Assembly (NCBI GenBank): GCA_025201365.1
Contig: JAIXMF010000055.1
Location: 1-52,216 of the forward strand
Length of the DNA: 52,216 bases
Reading direction: 5' to 3'
Origin: Syncephalis plumigaleata
Lineage: Eukaryota > Zoopagomycota > Zoopagomycetes > Zoopagales > Piptocephalidaceae
The translations under genes and the position numbers were made by a program. The first letter of the stretch is position 1, and each line of letters opens with the position of its first letter. The notes under the pieces are model-generated. The model saw only the letters and a list, made by a program, of their open reading frames with translations. It did no database searches and was not told where the DNA came from. This document shows positions 1,403-32,128 of this stretch, in pieces.

Positions 1403-3333
1403 ATGTCACCGCCAAAACAGAAGCATAAACAAAGCGGTGCTGTCACCACCAGTAGAAAGCCTAAGCCTACGCCGCTTTTACTGGCAGACCATATAGCAGC
1501 GCAACTTTACAAGGTACGTCATTCGCAACTATGAACTATGTAATTGCTTGTACTTACTCATTTGAATTGTATATGTATAAATATAAAAAGAGAAGTAACG
1601 CTACTGCTAAGAAACATCATCGAGATACACGTAAAGGGTCATTTGATATGGATAAACGGAAGAAAATGAGTAAATCTGGATGGTTAGCACGAGAGAGTCA
1701 GTCTATTAAACCACGTAATCCACTGGATAGCAGTGCACCACGTATTATGTATCGAGGATTTCAACGAAGAACACCAAAGGTACGTAAAACCATCACCCCT
1801 ATAAAACGTAAACTATTGGCGGGGAGAGCAGAATTGCGTATGCAACTATCAGAGCGATTAGCACGCATGAAAGACAAGAAAGATCGAAAAGCGATCGATG
1901 ATAATCATCGTAATGCAATGGAGCAGCAAACTACTAAAACGCCAACATCGCCTATGAGGAATATTTGGCTAGAGCGTGGTCCGCCAAACATTGTAGCCAG
2001 TACGAATAATCAACATACAACAGGTACAAATACGCCGTTAAAACGACGTAAAACACGACGTGTCACCAAGAAGAAGAAGAAGAAGAACAGCGGCAATAGC
2101 AGCAATCAAAATTTGACGTTAACATCGAATGAGCAACTTTTAAATGATATGCCAATACAAATTCGATATATACTAAGTCATACGCTAAACTATAATCGTG
2201 GATTACCTCAAAGGTAAGATATCATAAGGAATTATGAAATGCATCGGAAAACACAATCAGCTAACTGCTTGACCAGTTACTGTGATCAACTGGTGTCTAT
2301 AGAGTTGGATAAAGCCGTAACGAATCTATTAGGGGAATTGATTCGATTTCAGAAAAGAAAGCAACAACAAGATCCGATCAAGGTAAAATGTTTATTAATT
2401 ATTAATGAAAGCAAACATGCACGCATTGACATAAATACAGGCAAAAATACGAAAACGATATGTTATCGGATTACGTGAGACATTACGTGCACTTGCACTG
2501 AACAAGGCGCGTTGTGTTATTATGGCCAAGAACATTGAATATATTCATCCTAGTGGTAAGCTAAATAGACGAATGTTAGGACAGCAATGACATATATTCA
2601 TCTGATCCATGTCATAGAGGAGCAACTTGACCCATTGGTGGTGGAGATACGACAACAATGCTATCATCAAGCGATACCACTCGTTTATTCGATGACTCGA
2701 CGTCAACTTGGTCAAGCAACCGGTGAGGCTCGTGGACGTCGTGCGGGCGGTGTCGCATGCCTAGCCCTACTAATGATAGATGGCGCCGAGCCACTCTACG
2801 AGCAAGTATTGAATCAAGCTGAAAAAGATAGCACTAACTGGCGAAACTACTTTTGCAGTTTGTCACCATCCACTGAATCGGCTATGCCGTGGAATAATTA
2901 CCGCGAAACACCGATATGGTTGGCTGCGTGGCATGGCTACTCGGTGGATGTGGTACGTATTTGCTTAGAGAAAGGCTGGCCGATAGACGCATGCCCTATT
3001 ACTATACCAGCTACCGACAATGGTAATAGTAATGCCAGCGAGAATGAATATCATCATTGGACGCCATTGATGGCTGCAGCCTATCGGGGTCACACCCATC
3101 TAGTGGCCTATCTACTGGCGAATGGAGCCAATGTAAACGCGCAGGATCAACAGAATAGATCGGCACTATGGCTAGCAGTGGAACAGGGCCATGTGCAAGT
3201 AGTGAAAGAACTGCTAAAACCAATCCATGGCACTGACGCGACTATACGCGATAAGCATGATCAAACCGTATTACATGTAGCTATTCAAAAAAATCACGTA
3301 AAGATAATTGAAATATTACGACAACTTAATTGA
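1403..3333 (+). CDS. SECIS-binding protein 2-like L7Ae protein with C-terminal ankyrin repeats
   Basis: Five exons: 1403-1513, 1591-2213, 2277-2382, 2441-2555, 2618-3333; all GT-AG introns (58-77 nt) and all phases close, giving 556 residues. Residues 1-240 are basic, low complexity, with a poly-Lys run. Residues about 245-388 match the SBP2/SECISBP2L RNA-binding core: SYCDQLVSIELD, then LIRFQKR...QDPIKAK, KRYVIGLRETLRAL and the L7Ae fold ending IDGAEPLYEQVL. L7Ae-family proteins bind kink-turn RNA; SBP2 binds SECIS elements for selenocysteine insertion. Residues about 415-556 form four ankyrin repeats (e.g. TPLMAAAYRGHTHLVAYLLA). The L7Ae and ankyrin parts lie in the same final exon, so they are one protein. 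SBP2-like proteins may exist in organisms without selenocysteine, so the RNA target is inferred. No SECIS or UGA-Sec gene was seen here. Confidence 0.75.
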
Positions 3334-4227: not shown

Positions 4228-5014
4228 AATATATGTGTATATCTCTTTTGTGTTGTTAACGGTAGTAGTAGTATGGGACGGAGAATGAAATGAAATAAAG
4301 TTGATAAACTACTAGTAGGTGTAAGCGTAGAATAGAATAGAAGGAATTGCTAAAGCCGTTGAACAGGCTAGGCCCAACTACCGCACACACGTCATCTTAG
4401 CATTCTCGTCATTTCCTTATTGATATGTGATATACTGTTGATCACCATACTCATTGGTAAAAGTCGACATTTATTTAGACCAATCATTAATTGTGTAACT
4501 TTGCCATACACCTATATACATACATACACACACGCGCGCTATGTAGAAGCAATATAGAATGATGAAAGTAAAATCATTATCATTATAGATAGTAATATAT
4601 CAATGTACTTGCACGTCTAGTTGAACAACTGTAACTAACATCGTGCAACAGCATCAGTATGAATGATGCCTCATATTCAGTATATCACGCGACTGTGGAG
4701 TATGCAGGACAGGGTCGGCGACAGCACTCCCCATGCATTCTGCGATAACAATGATGGCTAGAAAACCCGTTTATTGCATATCTAGTCCAATATGGATCCC
4801 GGATGGTGTTGAACTTCGTAATAGCAATAGTTGCCTTTGAATGCGATCCGACAACCTCGTGATTATCCTTTATTCGGTTGTTCTACTCGATACAAGAATT
4901 TAATATTAGTACTTTTATTGCATAATCCACTTTCATAACACACAAATAATATATATATATCTTCCTAAATTCCATTGTAAACATTATATCCACTTCCCGT
5001 AAGATAGTTGTGCC
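4228..5014. other. Intergenic region between divergent genes
   Basis: About 790 bases upstream of both the minus-strand membrane protein and the 7TM gene. AT-rich, with short CA-type runs near 4500-4535 and no open frame that looks coding. Nothing identifiable beyond likely promoters. Confidence 0.5.
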
Positions 5015-6001
5015 ATGAAGCAGACGACCAGTTCAGGTCAACTCAACTCGTACGAGTACTGGGTCGGTGACGGTCAGGATATCCTGGCTATTCGTAGACG
5101 TAGCACGGGCATCCATCTACAAGTTATGGCGAATACCATCCTACTAGTCTTATTCGTATATAACTTTCTTACTTCCATTAAAATTACATGTAAACATCCT
5201 CGTCGACTTGTATCATGGTGTTGCCTTATACCATCGGCATTGGGCGTCATTGTATTTGGTATCATAGTCTTACCGGGATGTTTGCCATGGGGTGCTCCAT
5301 GCTACTCGGCAGTCTGGAGTGTCGTCGTTGGGTATTCGCTCTCCTCGATGACCGTGCACACCTCGCTGCTAGAACGCGCCTACTACGCTCATAATCGTAA
5401 TATCTGGCTATTGATCATTGGGATAGTGATCATTGCCGCTCCATCACCAGTGTTCATTTATCTTGTATGGCTTCTTGTCAAGGTGGAAAATCTACCCGGT
5501 TCAGGTTGTAATGCCACATTCCCCTCGTTCTTCCCCTATTTCCGCTTACTCTTGGATGCACCTCCTAATATCATATTTTCCGTATCGTTTATCATCGTAT
5601 TCTACCAGCAGTATAAACGCCTAGGAGACCAATGCTGGAAGGGACTAGCCCAGGATGGAATTATTACCGCATTGCTTATTATTACTTCCAACTTTCTTTG
5701 CATGCTAGCCAATGTCCTACACATCTTTGGTCCAATCACGGATATGGTATACATTCTAGACTGGTGAGCATAATATAGTTTTGTTTTTTTTGTTTCTAAC
5801 TCGCTAATTCTACTCACGCTTACATGTAGGGTGGTGACGACAACACTATTAGTATATAGCGTTCATCGTCGGGAGACCATCCAATCGAGTCTATATAAGA
5901 AACAATCAGCAACACCACTCGCCACTGAAGCGTTCACCCTACAGCTGGGCGAGACATGTGGCTACACGTATATTGACTCGCATGCTATATACTCCTCCTA
6001 A
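5015..6001 (+). CDS. Seven-transmembrane (GPCR-like) protein, paralogue 1
   Basis: Two exons, 5015-5763 and 5830-6001, joined by a 66-nt GT-AG intron inside the codon of a Trp in transmembrane segment 7; 306 residues. Seven hydrophobic segments can be counted (for example VMANTILLVLFVYNFL, GVIVFGIIVLPG, NIWLLIIGIVIIAAPSP, GIITALLIITSNFLCM and the one spanning the intron, ILDWVVTTTLLVYSV), followed by a short cytosolic tail. It shares spaced motifs with the gene at 28122-29146: a Pro-Arg-Arg-Leu loop before TM2, a LERAYYAHNRNIW-like segment before TM4, and QQYKRLGDQCWK before TM6, plus the identical intron position. A receptor role is inferred only from topology; I cannot place it in a named GPCR class. 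Confidence 0.65.
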
Positions 6002-8622: not shown

Positions 8623-9182
8623 TATGAATGTTCCTATATTGAATTTTACTATTGGGAACTTGTTATTCATTAATAAAAAGTATTATTAGTGTTGTACACC
8701 AACATTGATTCGTTTGTCGGATGACATGAATAAAATAATGTTTAGAAACACATGTGTAACTCGTTAATGTACAATAAATAGGCGATAATGCTTTGAATTT
8801 GCTCATAAAAAGGCATATATGTTATGGCTTCTTAGTACGATAACTAGGTAGCACTGATACATTTAGCATTTCAGACATGCATGATTCATATCATGCTCTT
8901 ATAAAGTATTCGTATAATGATGTCTAATAATGTTCGGGATCTACAATGGAAACAACGTTAAGAAGTAATAATAAAAATCATGAAACATTGTTTCCGTAAA
9001 TTATGAATGTTACAAGTTTCATATTTATTCTTAGGCAGAGGCTATGTAACATGTGTAGATACAAGTTAAGGCAAGCAATTAACGTATATCTATATTAAAT
9101 AGTGCGCTATTCTGAAGAGATAGAACGACAGCGAAAACGCCATTCATCATTCCAATTATCATTTCATAACAGTCACGCTATC
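8623..9182 (+). other. Non-coding flank upstream of LPMO copy 1
   Basis: AT-rich. A short part resembles the PUF60-like 3' flank; the remainder holds no recognisable gene. It must supply the promoter of the LPMO gene at 9183, because the duplicated DNA begins only at 9267. Confidence 0.4.
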
Positions 9183-10163
9183 ATGCTATATTCATTGTCA
9201 AAGACTATTGTCATCAGTCAGTTGGCCGTCATTTTAATGATTGCTACTGTACAGCAAACTGTAGCTCATTCCTGGCTTGAATGTACCGATTACTCAGTTG
9301 GCACGGCTCAATGTAGCGGATACCAGCGTGGCTGGAGTGCCAGTCATACCGATACCGATGTGACCTACCGTATCCTGGACAGGAAGAACGTGCCGGTCTG
9401 CTTCCCTGGTCGACAAGACTCCAGCAATAGTTACACGCCCGGATTCCCGATGGCTCAAGCTCGTCCCGGTCAGACGCTTACGTTCACATATCTGGAGAAC
9501 GGACATGTGACGAAGGATCGTCTGCCGGATAAGCCGGATCCAAAGACGTACACCATTCATTGGTCGTCGGCGGCAAACGAGGATACGCTCAAGATGCGAT
9601 CCGACCTATCGAGCAGCAATCAATTGGGCGAAGCACAACCATTCGATGATGGCCAGTGCTCGGAAGATGGATTGCAGCCAGGTCGCATCAAGAGGCCGTG
9701 CCGCGGTACCTTTACTATTCCCAATGATGCCACACCAGGTCGTCACCAATTCGTGTGGTGGTGGAAATTCGATAAGGCAGCACCCGAAGAGTACACCGCT
9801 TGTTTCGACGTTATGGTAACAACTGCGGATGGTGGCAATGTGGTGAACACATCGGGTATATCACAACGCAACGCTCGCACTAGCAATGCTTCTATTAACC
9901 TAGAAAGCACTAAGGCGACCACATCTTCTACCAGCATATCTTCGGAAGCACTCTCTAGTAGGCGTACGCAGCCAGCAGCTACAGCATCGTCGACTGTATA
10001 TTCATCATGCAAGGGTCAAGTATACGATGCATCACGATATGTCTGCGACAATAATCAGCTTTGCCCGCTAAATTATCGTGCATGTGGCGAAGCTTGCTAT
10101 CAATCCAGCAGTTATAAATGTTGTCCTGGCAATCGACTTGTTCAGATAACGCATAACTGCTAA
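9183..10163 (+). CDS. Secreted LPMO-like copper enzyme with X278-like C-terminal module, copy 1
   Basis: Single exon, 326 residues from ATG 9183 (an upstream GTG in frame is not a plausible start). A signal peptide ending TVQQTVA is followed by mature His1 in HSWLECTDYS, the N-terminal copper ligand of lytic polysaccharide monooxygenases. LTFTYLENGHVTK resembles the strand carrying the second His in other LPMO families, and EEYTACFDV supplies the axial aromatic; this assignment is by analogy. A Ser/Thr-rich linker leads to a Cys-rich module (GQVYDASRYVC, LCP, CGEACYQSSSYKC) like the X278 module reported on fungal AA11 chitin-active LPMOs. Likely role: oxidative cleavage of chitin or a related polysaccharide outside the cell. 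From His1 onward the protein is identical to the gene at 30586-31602; the signal peptide is unrelated. Confidence 0.75.
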   Translation: MLYSLSKTIVISQLAVILMIATVQQTVAHSWLECTDYSVGTAQCSGYQRGWSASHTDTDVTYRILDRKNVPVCFPGRQDSSNSYTPGFPMAQARPGQTLTFTYLENGHVTKDRLPDKPDPKTYTIHWSSAANEDTLKMRSDLSSSNQLGEAQPFDDGQCSEDGLQPGRIKRPCRGTFTIPNDATPGRHQFVWWWKFDKAAPEEYTACFDVMVTTADGGNVVNTSGISQRNARTSNASINLESTKATTSSTSISSEALSSRRTQPAATASSTVYSSCKGQVYDASRYVCDNNQLCPLNYRACGEACYQSSSYKCCPGNRLVQITHNC

Positions 10164-15165: not shown

Positions 15166-15234
15166 ACCGCAAAGTTCTAGTTAAAGCGTTCTATTATCAT
15201 TATATTTTATATAGCGTTATTTACAACATTTGCA

Positions 15235-16065
15235 ATGGAACAAAATCAAGGTTTCAACCCACAGGAGATGATGGCGATGTGGCAGCAAATGCAAGAAGCT
15301 ATGCAGCAGTTCAAACAGATGCAAGAAACTCTGCAGGTTCAACTCCCGACCAGGCAGAAGGACACCTGGATTCCGGACGAAAACTTTGTTAACCACGTCA
15401 GTTCATGGTCAGCAAGGCTGGATAACTTTAGCTTATCTGAGAAAGACAAGAAGGCAATAGTCGATGCCTACGCTCCAATAGAAGGTATTGACTATACGCC
15501 AGTCAGTAGCTATGAATCGAGCTCAAAACTTAACAAGTATCAGAAGGCATACGACAGCCGATTCAAGCAAATAGCATATTTATTAACAGGCGTTGTACGC
15601 CCGCTAGATGTTATCCTACAACAAGCAATCCTACAAGCAGACCAGGAAGCTGATCGCCAGTTTGTAGTAGCTCTAGACGATATTAGATCGTTGCTGTTAA
15701 ACACGATTCACACTGTGAAATCGTTTAGAATGGATATGGTCCTCAAGTCAATGGACAGTGACTTCACACTCATTCAGAAAGAAGAGCAACCAAAGGAAGA
15801 CCTTGCAATTATCCAACAAGCTTTCATTGAGCAAAGCAACCAAAAGAAGGCCATACTGGAACACAAAAAAGCCCAGCAGTTTTTTCGAGCGGACCCGCCA
15901 CGAAACGCTGGCGGGCAGGATCAATCCAATTGGCACAACAGGAACTCTTACCAGAAGCGCCCATTCAACCAAGCCAACAACAACAGAAGAGGAGGCAGAG
16001 TCAAGCCCCAATTCAACAGAGGCAACCACCACCACAACAACAACAACAACAACAACCAACAGTAG
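15235..16065 (+). CDS. DIRS ORF1, Gag-like protein
   Basis: 276 residues from ATG 15235. The N-terminus is Gln/Met-rich with coiled-coil character (MQEAMQQFKQMQETLQ), the middle is a helical region, and the C-terminus is basic and Asn/Gln/Arg-rich ending in an Asn run, compatible with nucleic-acid binding. This corresponds in position to the putative Gag ORF of DIRS elements, which is poorly conserved in sequence. Its last 135 bases overlap the RT frame, which lies in the -1 frame. No zinc knuckle seen. Confidence 0.75.
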   Translation: MEQNQGFNPQEMMAMWQQMQEAMQQFKQMQETLQVQLPTRQKDTWIPDENFVNHVSSWSARLDNFSLSEKDKKAIVDAYAPIEGIDYTPVSSYESSSKLNKYQKAYDSRFKQIAYLLTGVVRPLDVILQQAILQADQEADRQFVVALDDIRSLLLNTIHTVKSFRMDMVLKSMDSDFTLIQKEEQPKEDLAIIQQAFIEQSNQKKAILEHKKAQQFFRADPPRNAGGQDQSNWHNRNSYQKRPFNQANNNRRGGRVKPQFNRGNHHHNNNNNNNQQ

Positions 16066-17966
16066 GAGGCAGATTCCAGCGCTTCCATCTAGCCTGGGCT
16101 CGATTGACAGACAGCAAGTGGGTACATGCCGTCGTCAAAGAAGGTTTCCGGATACATTTCAGCAAGTGGCCACCAATCTCAAACAAAGTGCGACCGACGA
16201 TCCCGCTCAACCAGGAACAGCGCGTATTACTGAGGCAAGAGATCAACAGTCTATTGGCCAAACGAGCAATAGAGCCTGCCACGAATACGCCAGGTTACAT
16301 GAGTCCCATGTTTGTCATCCCGAAGTGGAACGGAGGCTATCGACCAGTGTTCAATCTGAAGGCACTGAATCAGCACGTTATATCCCCTCACTTCAAGATG
16401 GAGACAATCCAACAGGTCACCCAGCTAGTAAGGAAAAACGACTACCTCACGTCCATAGACATTACCGACGCCTTCCTACACATTTTGGTACATCGCAGCT
16501 CAAGAAAGTACCTCCGTTTCAATTGGGAAGGAGAAACATTCCAATTTCGCACCACACCCTTCGGCCTGTCAGTAGTCCCGTGGGTTTTTACACGTTTAAC
16601 AAAGCCCGTATTAGCATGGGCAAGGTCAATAGGCATTCGAATTTCAGCATACCTAGACGATTGGATCATCATCGCCAGCTCAAAGCAGGAATCGAAATGT
16701 CACACAAACACAATAATGGCCAAACTAGCAGAACTAGGTTGGCTGTGGAATCCCAAGAAGTCACAGCTCACTCCAACGCAGTCTCTAGTTCACCTAGGCT
16801 TCAAGATAGAAACGAAGACGATGACCATCAAGCTTCCCACCAAGAAGATCCGCGACATACGCAAATCGATCAAAGCAGTGCTCAACAGCAATACGACAAC
16901 ACCTCGAATGATCCACAGTCTCACAATGAGAATCAAGGCAGCGACGATCGCAATATTTCCTGTGAACTTGTACACCCAAGCATTGATGTTCTTCAAGAAT
17001 TCCCATGTGAAGAACAACAAGAACTGGGACAGCAAACAGACGCTACCAGCAGATTGCAAGCGAGAACTGAGATGGTGGTCCACCAACCTATCCAAGTGGA
17101 ACGGCAGATCACTAATAACACGTCCACCAACATCATCAATCTATGTGGATGCCAGCGACAAGGGATGGGGTGGAGTTTACAAGAACAACATGATACAAGG
17201 TCTATGGTCACACGAAGAAGCGAAGCAATCAATCAATTGGAGAGAGCTGAAAGCAATCGAATTGATGATCAAATCATTACCGCAACTATCGAATACGACG
17301 ATTCTGATACGCACAGACAACACGACGGCGAAGTCATACATCAACAAGCAGGGAGGAACGAGATCTCGTCAACTCAGCTCACTAGCAACGCAGATATGGG
17401 AGATGTGTCTCAAGAGGAACATTCAGATTCGAGCCAAACACATTCCAGGCTCTCAGAATACCGAAGCAGACTACGCATCGCGCAAGTTCTACCTCAAGAA
17501 CTTATGGCAAATACATCCACGCACATTTGCACAGATACAACGCAGGTACGGTCAACACGACGTAGATCTATTCGCCGATCGAACGTCTCATCTACTACCA
17601 ACGTATGTAGCGTGGAAGCCAGACCCTCACGCGATAGCCACAGATGCACTATCAATCAGCTGGAGACAATTCAGCCATCCTTACCTGAATCCGCCGTGGA
17701 ACTTGATATCCAAATGTGTGAACAAGATACAACAGGAGAAGATAGCACAAGCAACGATAGTGACGCCATTCTGGCCGTCAGCAATGTGGTTCCCCATACT
17801 GAGCAACTTAGCCACAGCTCCCCCAATAATACTCGACCCACAACACCACGCGCAAACTACCTCCCCTTCCGCCAGTTGGCCATGGACAAATCACAAGTGG
17901 AGAATATCCGTGTGGAGTGTCTCAAGCGAAAATATGAGGAGCCAGGATATTCGGACAAGGCAGTGA
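15831..17966 (+). CDS. DIRS ORF2: reverse transcriptase, RNase H and methyltransferase-like domain
   Basis: The frame is open from 15831 (after a TGA at 15828) to 17966 and has no ATG before the RT core; the first Met is inside YMSPMFVIPKWNG. RT motifs follow, including VFNLKALN, SIDITDAFLHI and the catalytic YLDDWIII. The RNase H part has IYVDASDKGWGG, NWRELKAIEL, RTDNTTAKSYI and HIPGSQNTEADYASR. The C-terminal part with DVDLFADR and LNPPWNLISK matches the DIRS-specific adenine-methyltransferase-like domain, where NPPW resembles the catalytic motif. The lack of an early start, plus the 15831-16062 overlap with ORF1 in the -1 frame, suggests translation by frameshifting or re-initiation. Copies RNA to DNA for retrotransposition. 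Confidence 0.9.
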   Translation, partial: AKQPKEGHTGTQKSPAVFSSGPATKRWRAGSIQLAQQELLPEAPIQPSQQQQKRRQSQAPIQQRQPPPQQQQQQQPTVGGRFQRFHLAWARLTDSKWVHAVVKEGFRIHFSKWPPISNKVRPTIPLNQEQRVLLRQEINSLLAKRAIEPATNTPGYMSPMFVIPKWNGGYRPVFNLKALNQHVISPHFKMETIQQVTQLVRKNDYLTSIDITDAFLHILVHRSSRKYLRFNWEGETFQFRTTPFGLSVVPWVFTRLTKPVLAWARSIGIRISAYLDDWIIIASSKQESKCHTNTIMAKLAELGWLWNPKKSQLTPTQSLVHLGFKIETKTMTIKLPTKKIRDIRKSIKAVLNSNTTTPRMIHSLTMRIKAATIAIFPVNLYTQALMFFKNSHVKNNKNWDSKQTLPADCKRELRWWSTNLSKWNGRSLITRPPTSSIYVDASDKGWGGVYKNNMIQGLWSHEEAKQSINWRELKAIELMIKSLPQLSNTTILIRTDNTTAKSYINKQGGTRSRQLSSLATQIWEMCLKRNIQIRAKHIPGSQNTEADYASRKFYLKNLWQIHPRTFAQIQRRYGQHDVDLFADRTSHLLPTYVAWKPDPHAIATDALSISWRQFSHPYLNPPWNLISKCVNKIQQEKIAQATIVTPFWPSAMWFPILSNLATAPPIILDPQHHAQTTSPSASWPWTNHKWRISVWSVSSENMRSQDIRTRQ

Positions 17967-18874
17967 AAGTTCTAGCAGAAGTAAAGCACAAAACGTACAT
18001 CAGAGGTCAACAATTATTCATTTCATGGGCAATCCAAAGGGATATCAATATCAGCAAATTTACATCAGCAGATTTGGTTAATTTCATAGCAGATGCACAT
18101 GAAGCAGGCTACAGCAAAGCAACTCTACAAACTTATAGAGCAGCAATTGTCAAGCTACACACACGCCCTGAATCAATCAAAACCAATCCTGACATACAAG
18201 CACTGATAAGGAACTTCAAATACATCCCACGTCCACTGAATAAATCAAAAGTTGATATTACGCCCACATTACGTCACTTATACGCCATACCGACGTCACC
18301 AGCAGCTGATTTTGATCAACTACGACGAAAAACGGCTTACTTACTGGCAATGTCAGCACTATTGAGACCCTCTGATATCAATAGAATTTGCAGATCACAA
18401 TCAAAAACAACTGACGAAGGCCTACAGCTATACATCATTAATCCGAAAGAAAAGCGAAAGAAGGAGTCGATTACTAAACCAATCATTATTCCACCTAACA
18501 GCAACATCCCACAGCTATGCCCCGTACAAGCATACGAAACACTATTACAACACCCACAATATATCGTCAGAAACAACTACCTATTCACTAAGTTAGGCAA
18601 GCCTCACAATAAAGTCGCCGATAACACCATTGCTTCTTGGTTGTCAAAGTTGACAGCGCTCTCAACAGACATTCGCCCAACTCCTCGTGTCAGATCAATC
18701 GCTTCAGATTTAGCACTTGAAAGAGGTGTACCACACGATGACATCATTACACTAGGCAATTGGGCAGATGCACGCACATTCGAAAAACATTACAGACGCC
18801 AGCGTTTATTAAGAAGTAATGTTACAGAAAAAGTGTTAGATTTAAGTCCAGTACACTTTGCGTCAGCTGAATAA
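17882..18874 (+). CDS. DIRS ORF3: tyrosine recombinase
   Basis: 330 residues from ATG 17882, overlapping the end of ORF2 by 85 bases in another frame. An N-terminal SAM-like DNA-binding region (YIRGQQLFISWAI, YSKATLQTYRAAIVKLH) precedes the catalytic domain: first Arg in MSALLRPSDINRI, second box in VRSIASDLALERGVPHDDI, and the likely nucleophile Tyr in TFEKHYRRQRLL, with LGNWAD between. It would join the circular cDNA into the genome. The same frame stays open upstream to about 15758 beneath ORF2; that upstream part has no recombinase homology that I can see, so I start at the Met just before the conserved region. Confidence 0.88.
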   Translation: MDKSQVENIRVECLKRKYEEPGYSDKAVKVLAEVKHKTYIRGQQLFISWAIQRDINISKFTSADLVNFIADAHEAGYSKATLQTYRAAIVKLHTRPESIKTNPDIQALIRNFKYIPRPLNKSKVDITPTLRHLYAIPTSPAADFDQLRRKTAYLLAMSALLRPSDINRICRSQSKTTDEGLQLYIINPKEKRKKESITKPIIIPPNSNIPQLCPVQAYETLLQHPQYIVRNNYLFTKLGKPHNKVADNTIASWLSKLTALSTDIRPTPRVRSIASDLALERGVPHDDIITLGNWADARTFEKHYRRQRLLRSNVTEKVLDLSPVHFASAE

Positions 18875-28121: not shown

Positions 28122-29146
28122 TTATCTTCGCGAATCAATCGTGGTATCCTCTGGCCACACACTTGTTTCAGCCTCTCGTGTAATTCTTGTAAACATGTCG
28201 TCCTGTCCTGGCGTTCTCCTACTAGAGCGATTCTTGCTAGCATTTGTCTCGGCAATAAAGTACAAACATCGAGTACTCTCTGTTAATAGTGTCATAGTTA
28301 CTACCCTAGTATGTTTAAATGTCGTTAGAATCATATAATGATGTATATCTCTGTCCATGTCCACATAATGCAATACGAATACACTTACCAATCAACCATG
28401 TATACTAGGCTGCTTGATTCCGCAAATGTATTGGCAACACCCAGGAAGAAGCATATGAAATTAGAAACAATGACCATCAGCATAGTCAGTATTCCATTAC
28501 GCCCTAACTCTTTCCAGCATTCGTCGGGGTGTTTTCGATACTGCCGATACACCACGATGCTGAAAACAATCGAGAAGACAATGTTTGAAGGAAGATCGAC
28601 CGCCAGTCGAACGTAGGGAAGAAACGGGGGATACTTTAGGTAGCATGCATGTTTCTCGCTCAGCAGGGCGGATGAGGTTAGCCAGGAGGTAGCTACATAA
28701 ATAGGACCTGGAACGGTAATTAGAATGACGCCCAATATGGTGAACCATATATTACGCTGACAGGCAAAGTAGGCCCTCTCAAACAGCATCAGATTGCATA
28801 TCATCGATGATATAGTAATAGCGAACAGGGTGGCCCACGCAAACGTACTACACGTTGCATTCTCAGTTAGCCAGAATGGTGCACCGGCACTTGCGTACGA
28901 TAAGAAACTAACGCTGTTTGCGCAAAAAGAACACCATGGTGCCAGTCTACGAGGATACCTTACAACGATCTTGCCAACACAGATTGCATTACGAGCAAAG
29001 ATATATCCGATGAAATAGCAAAGTACCATTTGAAGGTTAGATGCGGAATAACGCTGTCGAAGAAGATCGCTATCATCTCGCGCTTCCCAAATGTAATTGA
29101 TCATACTTCGCCTTCCATCGACATTGTCAGGTCTTATTGTCTCCAT
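28122..29146 (-). CDS. Seven-transmembrane (GPCR-like) protein, paralogue 2
   Basis: Two exons, 29146-28389 and 28305-28122, with an 83-nt GT-AG intron that splits the Trp codon of TM7 (MVDWVVTMTLL) at the same place as in the gene at 5015; 313 residues. Shared landmarks: RYPRRLAPW before TM2, LFERAYFACQRNIW before TM4, PYVRLAVDLPSNIVFS in TM5 and RQYRKHPDECWKELGRNGI before TM6. The C-terminal tail is longer and charged (residues about 270-313). Overall similarity between the two is moderate, so this is an old duplication, unlike the recent repeats around them. Function inferred from topology only. Confidence 0.65.
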
Positions 29147-29654: not shown

Positions 29655-31482
29655 ATACACGATAAACAATGTAATAAACAAGCAGTGAATAGTAGAATGA
29701 CTAATTTGTCACGAATGAGCAAGGAATGAGCAAGGAAGGGTGCATGAACACGTATGCCAGTTTATTCGAAGAAGCAGCGTATGCTTATAGGTAGATAGAG
29801 TATGGAGATGGCACTAAACAAGTGAAAATACAAAAATAAAAGCATGACGTAAGGGTGGCATACAAACAGATGACGGAAAAGAGTGGCAAAAGTAAAAGGT
29901 ACATATTACAACGAGAGCAGTAAACGCTTAAACATTGATAAATAAGCAGGACAGTGATAGAAAACAAAGGACTAGAACGAACAATAAACAACACTTATTG
30001 GTATAGTAATAATAATGACAAGTGAGCATATAGATAGGTTAGAGTAAGAGGAAAACAAAGAGATAAATAAACGTCATAGAGATAGTATGGCAGAATAGTT
30101 GCTATTGGGAATGTGTATGCTAAAGTGAAAGAGGAAGTAAGTGGAATGCGAATGACACGAATAAGACGCGTATTACTGAGAGTAAATAGAAGAAAGAGGA
30201 ATAACTAGCATATAGTTGGGAGGAAGTAGACGTGTGTTGTTTACTGGCAAGTGGAATGTAGTTGACACAAAGAAGGCACTTGCTGTTTAGTGGTAAGGGA
30301 AATGTAGTTGGTATGAATAAGACAGTATGTGAAAGAAGTAAATGACAAATGGAATGTAGTCAAGACTAAGAAGACAGCATTGGCAAAGAAGTAAGGGAAA
30401 CAACAATGAAATAGAAACTTAGAAATGGATTGGCATACTGTTAATGCCATCAGGCACTAGTAACAAACATGTCAATTATTGTTAGTGCTTACTGATTGCT
30501 AGTAATCATCATTTAGAAATAAACCTTTTAAATTTATTATAGGTTATAGTAAATAATAGAAATAGAAATATCATTTGTTAATAGCTTAGCAGTTATGCGT
30601 TATCTGAACAAGTCGATTGCCAGGACAACATTTATAACTGCTGGATTGATAGCAAGCTTCGCCACATGCACGATAATTTAGCGGGCAAAGCTGATTATTG
30701 TCGCAGACATATCGTGATGCATCGTATACTTGACCCTTGCATGATGAATATACAGTCGACGATGCTGTAGCTGCTGGCTGCGTACGCCTACTAGAGAGTG
30801 CTTCCGAAGATATGCTGGTAGAAGATGTGGTCGCCTTAGTGCTTTCTAGGTTAATAGAAGCATTACTAGTGCGAGCGTTGCGTTGTGATATACCCGATGT
30901 GTTCACCACATTGCCACCATCCGCAGTTGTTACCATAACGTCGAAACAAGCGGTGTACTCTTCGGGTGCTGCCTTATCGAATTTCCACCACCACACGAAT
31001 TGGTGACGACCTGGTGTGGCATCATTGGGAATAGTAAAGGTACCGCGGCACGGCCTCTTGATGCGACCTGGCTGCAATCCATCTTCCGAGCACTGGCCAT
31101 CATCGAATGGTTGTGCTTCGCCCAATTGATTGCTGCTCGATAGGTCGGATCGCATCTTGAGCGTATCCTCGTTTGCCGCCGACGACCAATGAATGGTGTA
31201 CGTCTTTGGATCCGGCTTATCCGGCAGACGATCCTTCGTCACATGTCCGTTCTCCAGATATGTGAACGTAAGCGTCTGACCGGGACGAGCTTGAGCCATC
31301 GGGAATCCGGGCGTGTAACTATTGCTGGAGTCTTGTCGACCAGGGAAGCAGACCGGCACGTTCTTCCTGTCCAGGATACGGTAGGTCACATCGGTATCGG
31401 TATGACTGGCACTCCAGCCACGCTGGTATCCGCTACATTGAGCCGTGCCAACTGAGTAATCGGTACATTCAAGCCAGGAATG
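29655..31482 (-). repeat. Segmental duplicate of 9267-11092 (inverted)
   Basis: Contains the mature-LPMO coding region and its 3' flank. Ends at 31482 on the first base of the His1 codon. Distal part (29655 to about 30000) has diverged slightly from the other copy. Confidence 0.85.
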
Positions 31483-31602
31483 TCCATCAACATAAGATGG
31501 GTATTTAGCTAGTAGCAGTAGAGTAGCGGCTAGCACTAATCCACATTTAGAGCTAATACCTCTACGATGATAAATACTTGCAGTCGTGTAATGCCCGTTC
31601 AT
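30586..31602 (-). CDS. Secreted LPMO-like copper enzyme with X278-like module, copy 2
   Basis: Single exon, 338 residues, taking the ATG at 31602 (an in-frame TTG at 31614 is not a likely start). The leader MNGHYTTASIYHRRG... is longer than in copy 1 and has a hydrophobic core CGLVLAATLLLLA ending YVDG before His1. Every residue from HSWLECTDYS to the C-terminus is identical to the gene at 9183-10163. It lies 180 bp within tandem range of a third, diverged LPMO gene at 32129 on the same strand, which suggests this is the parental locus. Same predicted activity: copper-dependent oxidation of an extracellular polysaccharide, perhaps chitin given the C-terminal Cys module. Confidence 0.75.
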   Translation of the reverse strand: MNGHYTTASIYHRRGISSKCGLVLAATLLLLAKYPSYVDGHSWLECTDYSVGTAQCSGYQRGWSASHTDTDVTYRILDRKNVPVCFPGRQDSSNSYTPGFPMAQARPGQTLTFTYLENGHVTKDRLPDKPDPKTYTIHWSSAANEDTLKMRSDLSSSNQLGEAQPFDDGQCSEDGLQPGRIKRPCRGTFTIPNDATPGRHQFVWWWKFDKAAPEEYTACFDVMVTTADGGNVVNTSGISQRNARTSNASINLESTKATTSSTSISSEALSSRRTQPAATASSTVYSSCKGQVYDASRYVCDNNQLCPLNYRACGEACYQSSSYKCCPGNRLVQITHNC

Positions 31603-32128
31603 GCTGATAAGCAAATAAGTAAGGAATAAATAGATACTATTTTTGTATGGCTAAGAAAAGTGTTATACACCTAGTCGACGAATAAGGGCGAGTAAAGTAG
31701 TAAGGTGACAATAATGGTGAAACGCGGTGCAACCATCGAAGAGGTCAGGAGCTTGCTCTTTTTTTACATTTAAAAAGGTTATTACCATGTGAACACATGT
31801 TGTTGAACAGTAAGCAAAAACAGTTTTCGTGTGTATTTTCATGAACTTGCTAATATCTAATCGGTCTGTTATAACATTTATTCTCATAACTTGTTTGAAA
31901 TGTTTTACAGAACAGTAATAATGATAATGATAATAAAGGAGATAACTCAGCACGGCATTGTATTCCATCCCAGTCAATTTCATTCATGTGTGATTGTACA
32001 ATTTTGGACGCTATCAACAATAAATTGATAGTCGCTAATAGTAACAATGATGACTTGCAATGATACTGAAATTTATTCCATCATTGAATGAATGTGTGAA
32101 AATTCATATAATAAAAATAAGAAGGATC
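31603..32128. other. Spacer between tandem LPMO genes
   Basis: About 525 bases, AT-rich; presumably holds the promoter of copy 2 and the 3' end of the third LPMO gene. Open frames here look incidental. Confidence 0.4.

Follow-up and report, generated by a model that had tools for sequence, protein, structure and literature searches.

A putative selenocysteine-machinery protein of a fungus: an SBP2 core followed by an ankyrin-repeat tail

It is SBP2 that determines at which UGA codons selenocysteine (Sec) is inserted, and Sec use is rare among fungi. What, then, is a gene that joins an SBP2-type core to ankyrin repeats doing in a fungal assembly? The original prediction left two answers: either Sec insertion is retained and its SBP2 has gained an interaction module, or an SBP2-derived RNA-binding protein has been repurposed. 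The first is favoured by the SBP2 identity of the protein (SID included), by the Sec genes and fungal domains of the assembly, and by a search that returned no second SBP2-like locus. We consider it very probable that the gene is the SBP2 of a Sec-using fungus, its only one as far as the search shows, and that the ankyrin tail is an added interaction module.

The gene lies on the plus strand at 1403-3333 of the window (the whole stretch of DNA analysed, 52,216 bases). Its five exons, separated by introns that are all GT..AG, encode 556 residues with no internal stop:

1403..1513, plus strand: exon 1, start codon and basic N-terminus; 3' end uncertain
1591..2213, plus strand: exon 2, SID stretch (residues 61-127, about 1660-1860), NPLDSSAP at 1717; 5' boundary uncertain
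2277..2382, plus strand: exon 3, SBP2-type segment from YCDQLVSIELD (2278) to RFQKR (2344), ahead of L7Ae
2441..2555, plus strand: exon 4, first half of L7Ae, GLRE at 2468
2618..2904, plus strand: exon 5, first part, rest of the SBP2 L7Ae domain plus linker
2905..3330, plus strand: exon 5, second part, four ankyrin repeats (residues 415-556), the first with an insert

By enumeration, 36 open splice combinations retain four chosen motifs. Among the models listed, variation is confined to the first intron, both ends of which remain uncertain, and to the last intron, which has four open variants and was set at 2556-2617 because this fits the L7Ae alignment. The resulting 2555/2618 junction is spanned by the SBP2 alignment, with one single-residue gap nearby (phmmer).

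When the 411 residues ahead of the ankyrins were compared with PDB chains using phmmer, the best match was SBP2 (7zjw/7zjx, E 1.1e-26), in two separate stretches corresponding to the SID (23.2 bits) and to the RNA-binding domain (RBD, 83.4 bits). Residues 61-127 align with SBP2 486-551, the part containing the SID core, with 29 identities in 65 aligned positions (i-E 3.3e-4), and residues 244-381 with SBP2 630-761, the RBD (53/132 identical). The SBP2-type core leading into L7Ae that had been predicted from the exon chain is thus recovered, together with a SID core upstream of the RBD that the prediction had not mentioned. Retained positions are Q520, K525, K533 and R540 in the SID and R654, F655, Q656, R658, G676, R678, E679 and L681 in the RBD; altered positions are K517 and R543, the two ends of the SID core, and K650, D657, N730 and Q756 in the RBD (residue numbers are those of the SBP2 chain and agree with the human numbering in PMC2746813). 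In the accessible text of that paper the SID core (human K517-R543) is unique to the SBP2 family, K650 and N730 are among the SECIS-binding residues, and RFQDR654-658 is required for Sec insertion; the motif reads RFQKR here, four of its five residues being retained and D657 replaced by K. The order of SID core, RFQxR segment and L7Ae RNA-binding domain with GLRE is common to this protein and SBP2 (SECISBP2), whereas the fungal protein differs in its C-terminal ankyrin domain, in having about 60 residues ahead of the SID match where SBP2 has about 485, and in the altered positions just given. Judged by its sequence, the gene product is SBP2, SID and RBD included, an assignment that was made against the SBP2 chain and does not separate SBP2 from SBP2L; the fusion protein would accordingly be predicted to bind SECIS elements and to recruit eEFSec.

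The original prediction had proposed searching the same assembly for the other Sec genes, and tRNA-Sec, SepSecS, eEFSec and SPS2 were all found there, PSTK as a candidate. The tRNA-Sec (UCA anticodon, 74.7 bits against a cut-off of 47) is on contigs C1 and C65; these are the two of six matches to the model that exceed the cut-off, and two of the remaining four were checked, both (L011, L013) proving to be tRNA-Ser. SepSecS is encoded on C35 and C110 (E 2.1e-25). On C318, eEFSec is recognised by the eukaryotic SelB domain III (E 7.5e-8, matched in 0 of 14 prokaryote controls) and by a domain II piece that is without a Pfam match and has eEFSec as its best PDB match (E 7.3e-13, next EF-Tu at 7.6e-6); pieces of the G domain can also be read on this contig. 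The PSTK candidate is on C223 and C58: its first exon fits NCBIfam selen_PSTK_euk best, at an E of 3.5e-10 that is far under the full-length cut-off, has KTI12 as its best Pfam match and meets archaeal PSTK structures at E 0.57-0.6 only, and a genome-wide search with selen_PSTK_euk at E 0.001 gave no match.

Two genes in the assembly bear a UGA at a selenocysteine position. On C101, the SPS2 reading is AGLKG-TGA-GCK, continued beyond an intron placed by eye as VPQVELLALL; we take this to be the SPS2 active site with its UGA; the selD model gives three SPS2 matches, all exon pieces below its cut-off. On C223, a GPx gene reads NVASK-UGA-GLT, with the UGA at the active-site position (929-931 of L043), just upstream of two Pfam matches. 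Taken together, tRNA-Sec, SepSecS, eEFSec, the candidate PSTK and the UGA-bearing SPS2 and GPx support the view that the organism uses Sec.

As to SECIS elements, SPS2 is followed by a hairpin that is SECIS-like, and no candidate of note was found on the 3' side of GPx. The SPS2 hairpin lies 66 nt past the inferred stop and has an ATGA, a helix of 12 pairs whose loop contains AAA, and a TGA, with no clear lower helix; its fold is 1.7 s.d. better than those of shuffles, 11/200 of which are as good. Under a strict descriptor, composed after the hairpin had been picked by eye from 22 regex hits, it is the one hit in the SPS2 3' region, and its score of 24 is reached nowhere in the 104 kb formed by both strands of the window and in none of 200 shuffles; a looser descriptor gives two hits at a score of at least 24 per 52 kb of window. 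On the 3' side of GPx the strict descriptor found nothing, the looser one reached a best score of 19 (the window yields 12 such per 52 kb), and a folding scan returned a single weak candidate in four nested versions. With Rfam at E up to 10, neither the SPS2 locus nor the GPx locus showed a SECIS match, and the window gave no Rfam match that reached its gathering score.

Could the protein instead be an SBP2-derived RNA-binding protein put to another use, with Sec insertion lost or served by another SBP2? Residues differ at several positions of the human SID and RBD, the ankyrin tail is foreign to the SBP2 match, and the claim of a single SBP2 comes from one search, in whose loose first look four candidates were scored. 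That search used the RBD as query against the assembly and allowed E values up to 10, yet its six matches all came from the two alleles of the SBP2 gene, with no other SBP2-like locus; the Pfam L7Ae family has 11 matches in the assembly, two of them these alleles. The presence of tRNA-Sec, SepSecS, eEFSec, the PSTK candidate and UGA-containing SPS2 and GPx also argues against repurposing, which we regard as improbable. As no other SBP2-like locus was found, the SBP2-ankyrin protein most likely does the Sec-insertion job.

Pfam recognises the ankyrin tail itself (Ank_2 E 2.5e-39, Ank E 4.5e-23). It is built of 33-residue repeats, with repeat motifs at 2905, 3061, 3160 and 3265, and among the best 60 of its 313 PDB matches the top ones are designed ankyrins and ankyrins. 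Matches to NCBIfam bacterial ankyrin proteins were far under their cut-offs and generic, and were set aside. The other ankyrin matches in the genome (15 among the matches listed) are at most 43% identical to it, so that no recent donor is visible. Placed directly behind L7Ae, the repeats are probably an added protein-protein interaction module that docks a partner protein, for example a part of the Sec-decoding complex, or perhaps a regulator or localisation factor.

A different concern is that the gene model merges an SBP2 gene with a separate ankyrin gene, the ankyrin part having its own mRNA or being spliced out. This seems quite unlikely: as predicted, the four repeats share exon and frame with L7Ae, and exon 5, whose 716 bases encode the rest of L7Ae and all of the ankyrin part, stays open through 237 codons, a length that 0/1000 base shuffles equalled (longest 172). 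The same region is found on a second contig (C362), 98.9% identical over 6 kb, and the frame is intact and unchanged in both alleles. The C362 allele differs at 14 codons. Eight of these changes alter the amino acid, and every one of the eight falls among the first 211 codons, three (codons 63, 73 and 108) in the SID stretch; from codon 212 onwards there are four synonymous changes, and codons 335-556, which hold the ankyrins, are unchanged.

It is more improbable still that the L7Ae core derives from another family (eL8, eL30, Snu13 or Nhp2) and only superficially resembles SBP2. Pfam does assign the core only to the broad L7Ae family (Ribosomal_L7Ae, E 2.2e-8), but the PDB comparison, in which 46 distinct sequences had an E value of 10 or lower, puts another L7Ae protein in second place at E 0.045, about 24 orders of magnitude behind SBP2, and the SID matches SBP2 separately. 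The profile comparison that the original prediction had suggested for telling SBP2 from other L30e/L7Ae families thus places SBP2 first.

An assembly chimera or a contaminant contig we dismiss almost entirely: the window, 52,216 bases long, makes up an entire contig and has the look of a haplotig, but the same fusion stands on a 976-kb contig, about 1% different, and the 3-Mb contig C1 bears both the tRNA-Sec and a match to the fungal-specific transcription-factor domain Fungal_trans. The assembly (32.6 Mb in 383 contigs) seems to hold both haplotypes in part, because several loci occur twice, with one copy on a small contig (C335/C362, C65/C1, C110/C35). Fungal_trans gave 16 match lines, which include alleles or pieces interrupted by stops, and matched 0 of the 14 controls, which are prokaryotes and therefore uninformative on other eukaryotes; together with an Rsc7/Swp82 subunit encoded in the window (Pfam), these lines support a fungal assembly.

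The window also holds traces of duplication and of a mobile element. Two secreted-looking proteins, at 9099-10163 (plus strand) and 30586-31650 (minus strand), are identical over their last 298 residues (from HSWLECTDYS) and differ in their N-terminal leaders; their DNA forms an inverted repeat of 1.83 kb that is 98.6% identical, and the pair looks like a recent duplication or gene conversion. The protein at 9099-10163 matches Pfam DUF7492 and Carb_bind. Two multi-pass-looking membrane proteins in opposite orientation, at 5003-5767 (plus strand, no Pfam match) and 28385-29146 (minus strand), are 34% identical over 239 residues; they are older paralogues outside the recent repeat. A retroelement, perhaps of DIRS type, lies at 15181-18874 (plus strand). 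Its domains are a reverse transcriptase (E 1.7e-22) and a methyltransferase that is Dam-like (E 3.7e-7); an overlapping frame of 1051 residues is without a Pfam match and has a recombinase-like end.

How does the fusion compare with what has been published? Sec use in fungi is already known, as the original prediction had noted for some early-branching lineages: the accessible text of PMC10386755 reports nine Sec-using fungi, of which seven belong to the Harpellales (citing Mariotti et al. 2019), and that of PMC12611240 describes Zancudomyces culisetae as expressing selenoproteins and machinery genes. The present fungus has in common with Harpellales and other early-branching Sec users both the machinery and the UGA selenoproteins (PMC10386755, PMC12611240, in their accessible parts). 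No SBP2-ankyrin architecture came up in the literature searched, which leaves most subscription journals outside. Ankyrins are not mentioned in the accessible sections of PMC11227280 or PMC7539508, and an IMG/VR scan with the RBD gave 18 pattern matches and no relative. SBP2L (SECISBP2L) has the SID-RBD core in common with the fungal protein, which differs in its ankyrin tail; according to the available portion of the older PMC2746813, SBP2L is the only form in invertebrate deuterostomes and is absent from fungi. With ankyrin-repeat proteins at large the tail shares canonical repeats, the fusion to SBP2 being the difference.

If the gene is indeed the SBP2 of this fungus, one may speculate about what the tail does. 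Tentatively, the protein could be a two-handed adaptor, whose RNA-binding half would hold the SECIS element while the ankyrin half held one constant protein: eEFSec, a ribosomal protein or a stress regulator. Such a contact, absent from animals, would then gate or localise Sec insertion, and would perhaps substitute for the long regulatory stretch at the N-terminus of animal SBP2.

The assembly adds one more Sec system to the few known in fungi, unless its species is already among the nine reported in the accessible text of PMC10386755. The SBP2-ankyrin fusion may help to show how an early fungal lineage has retained Sec insertion and controls it, and its ankyrin tail could be used as bait for the partner.
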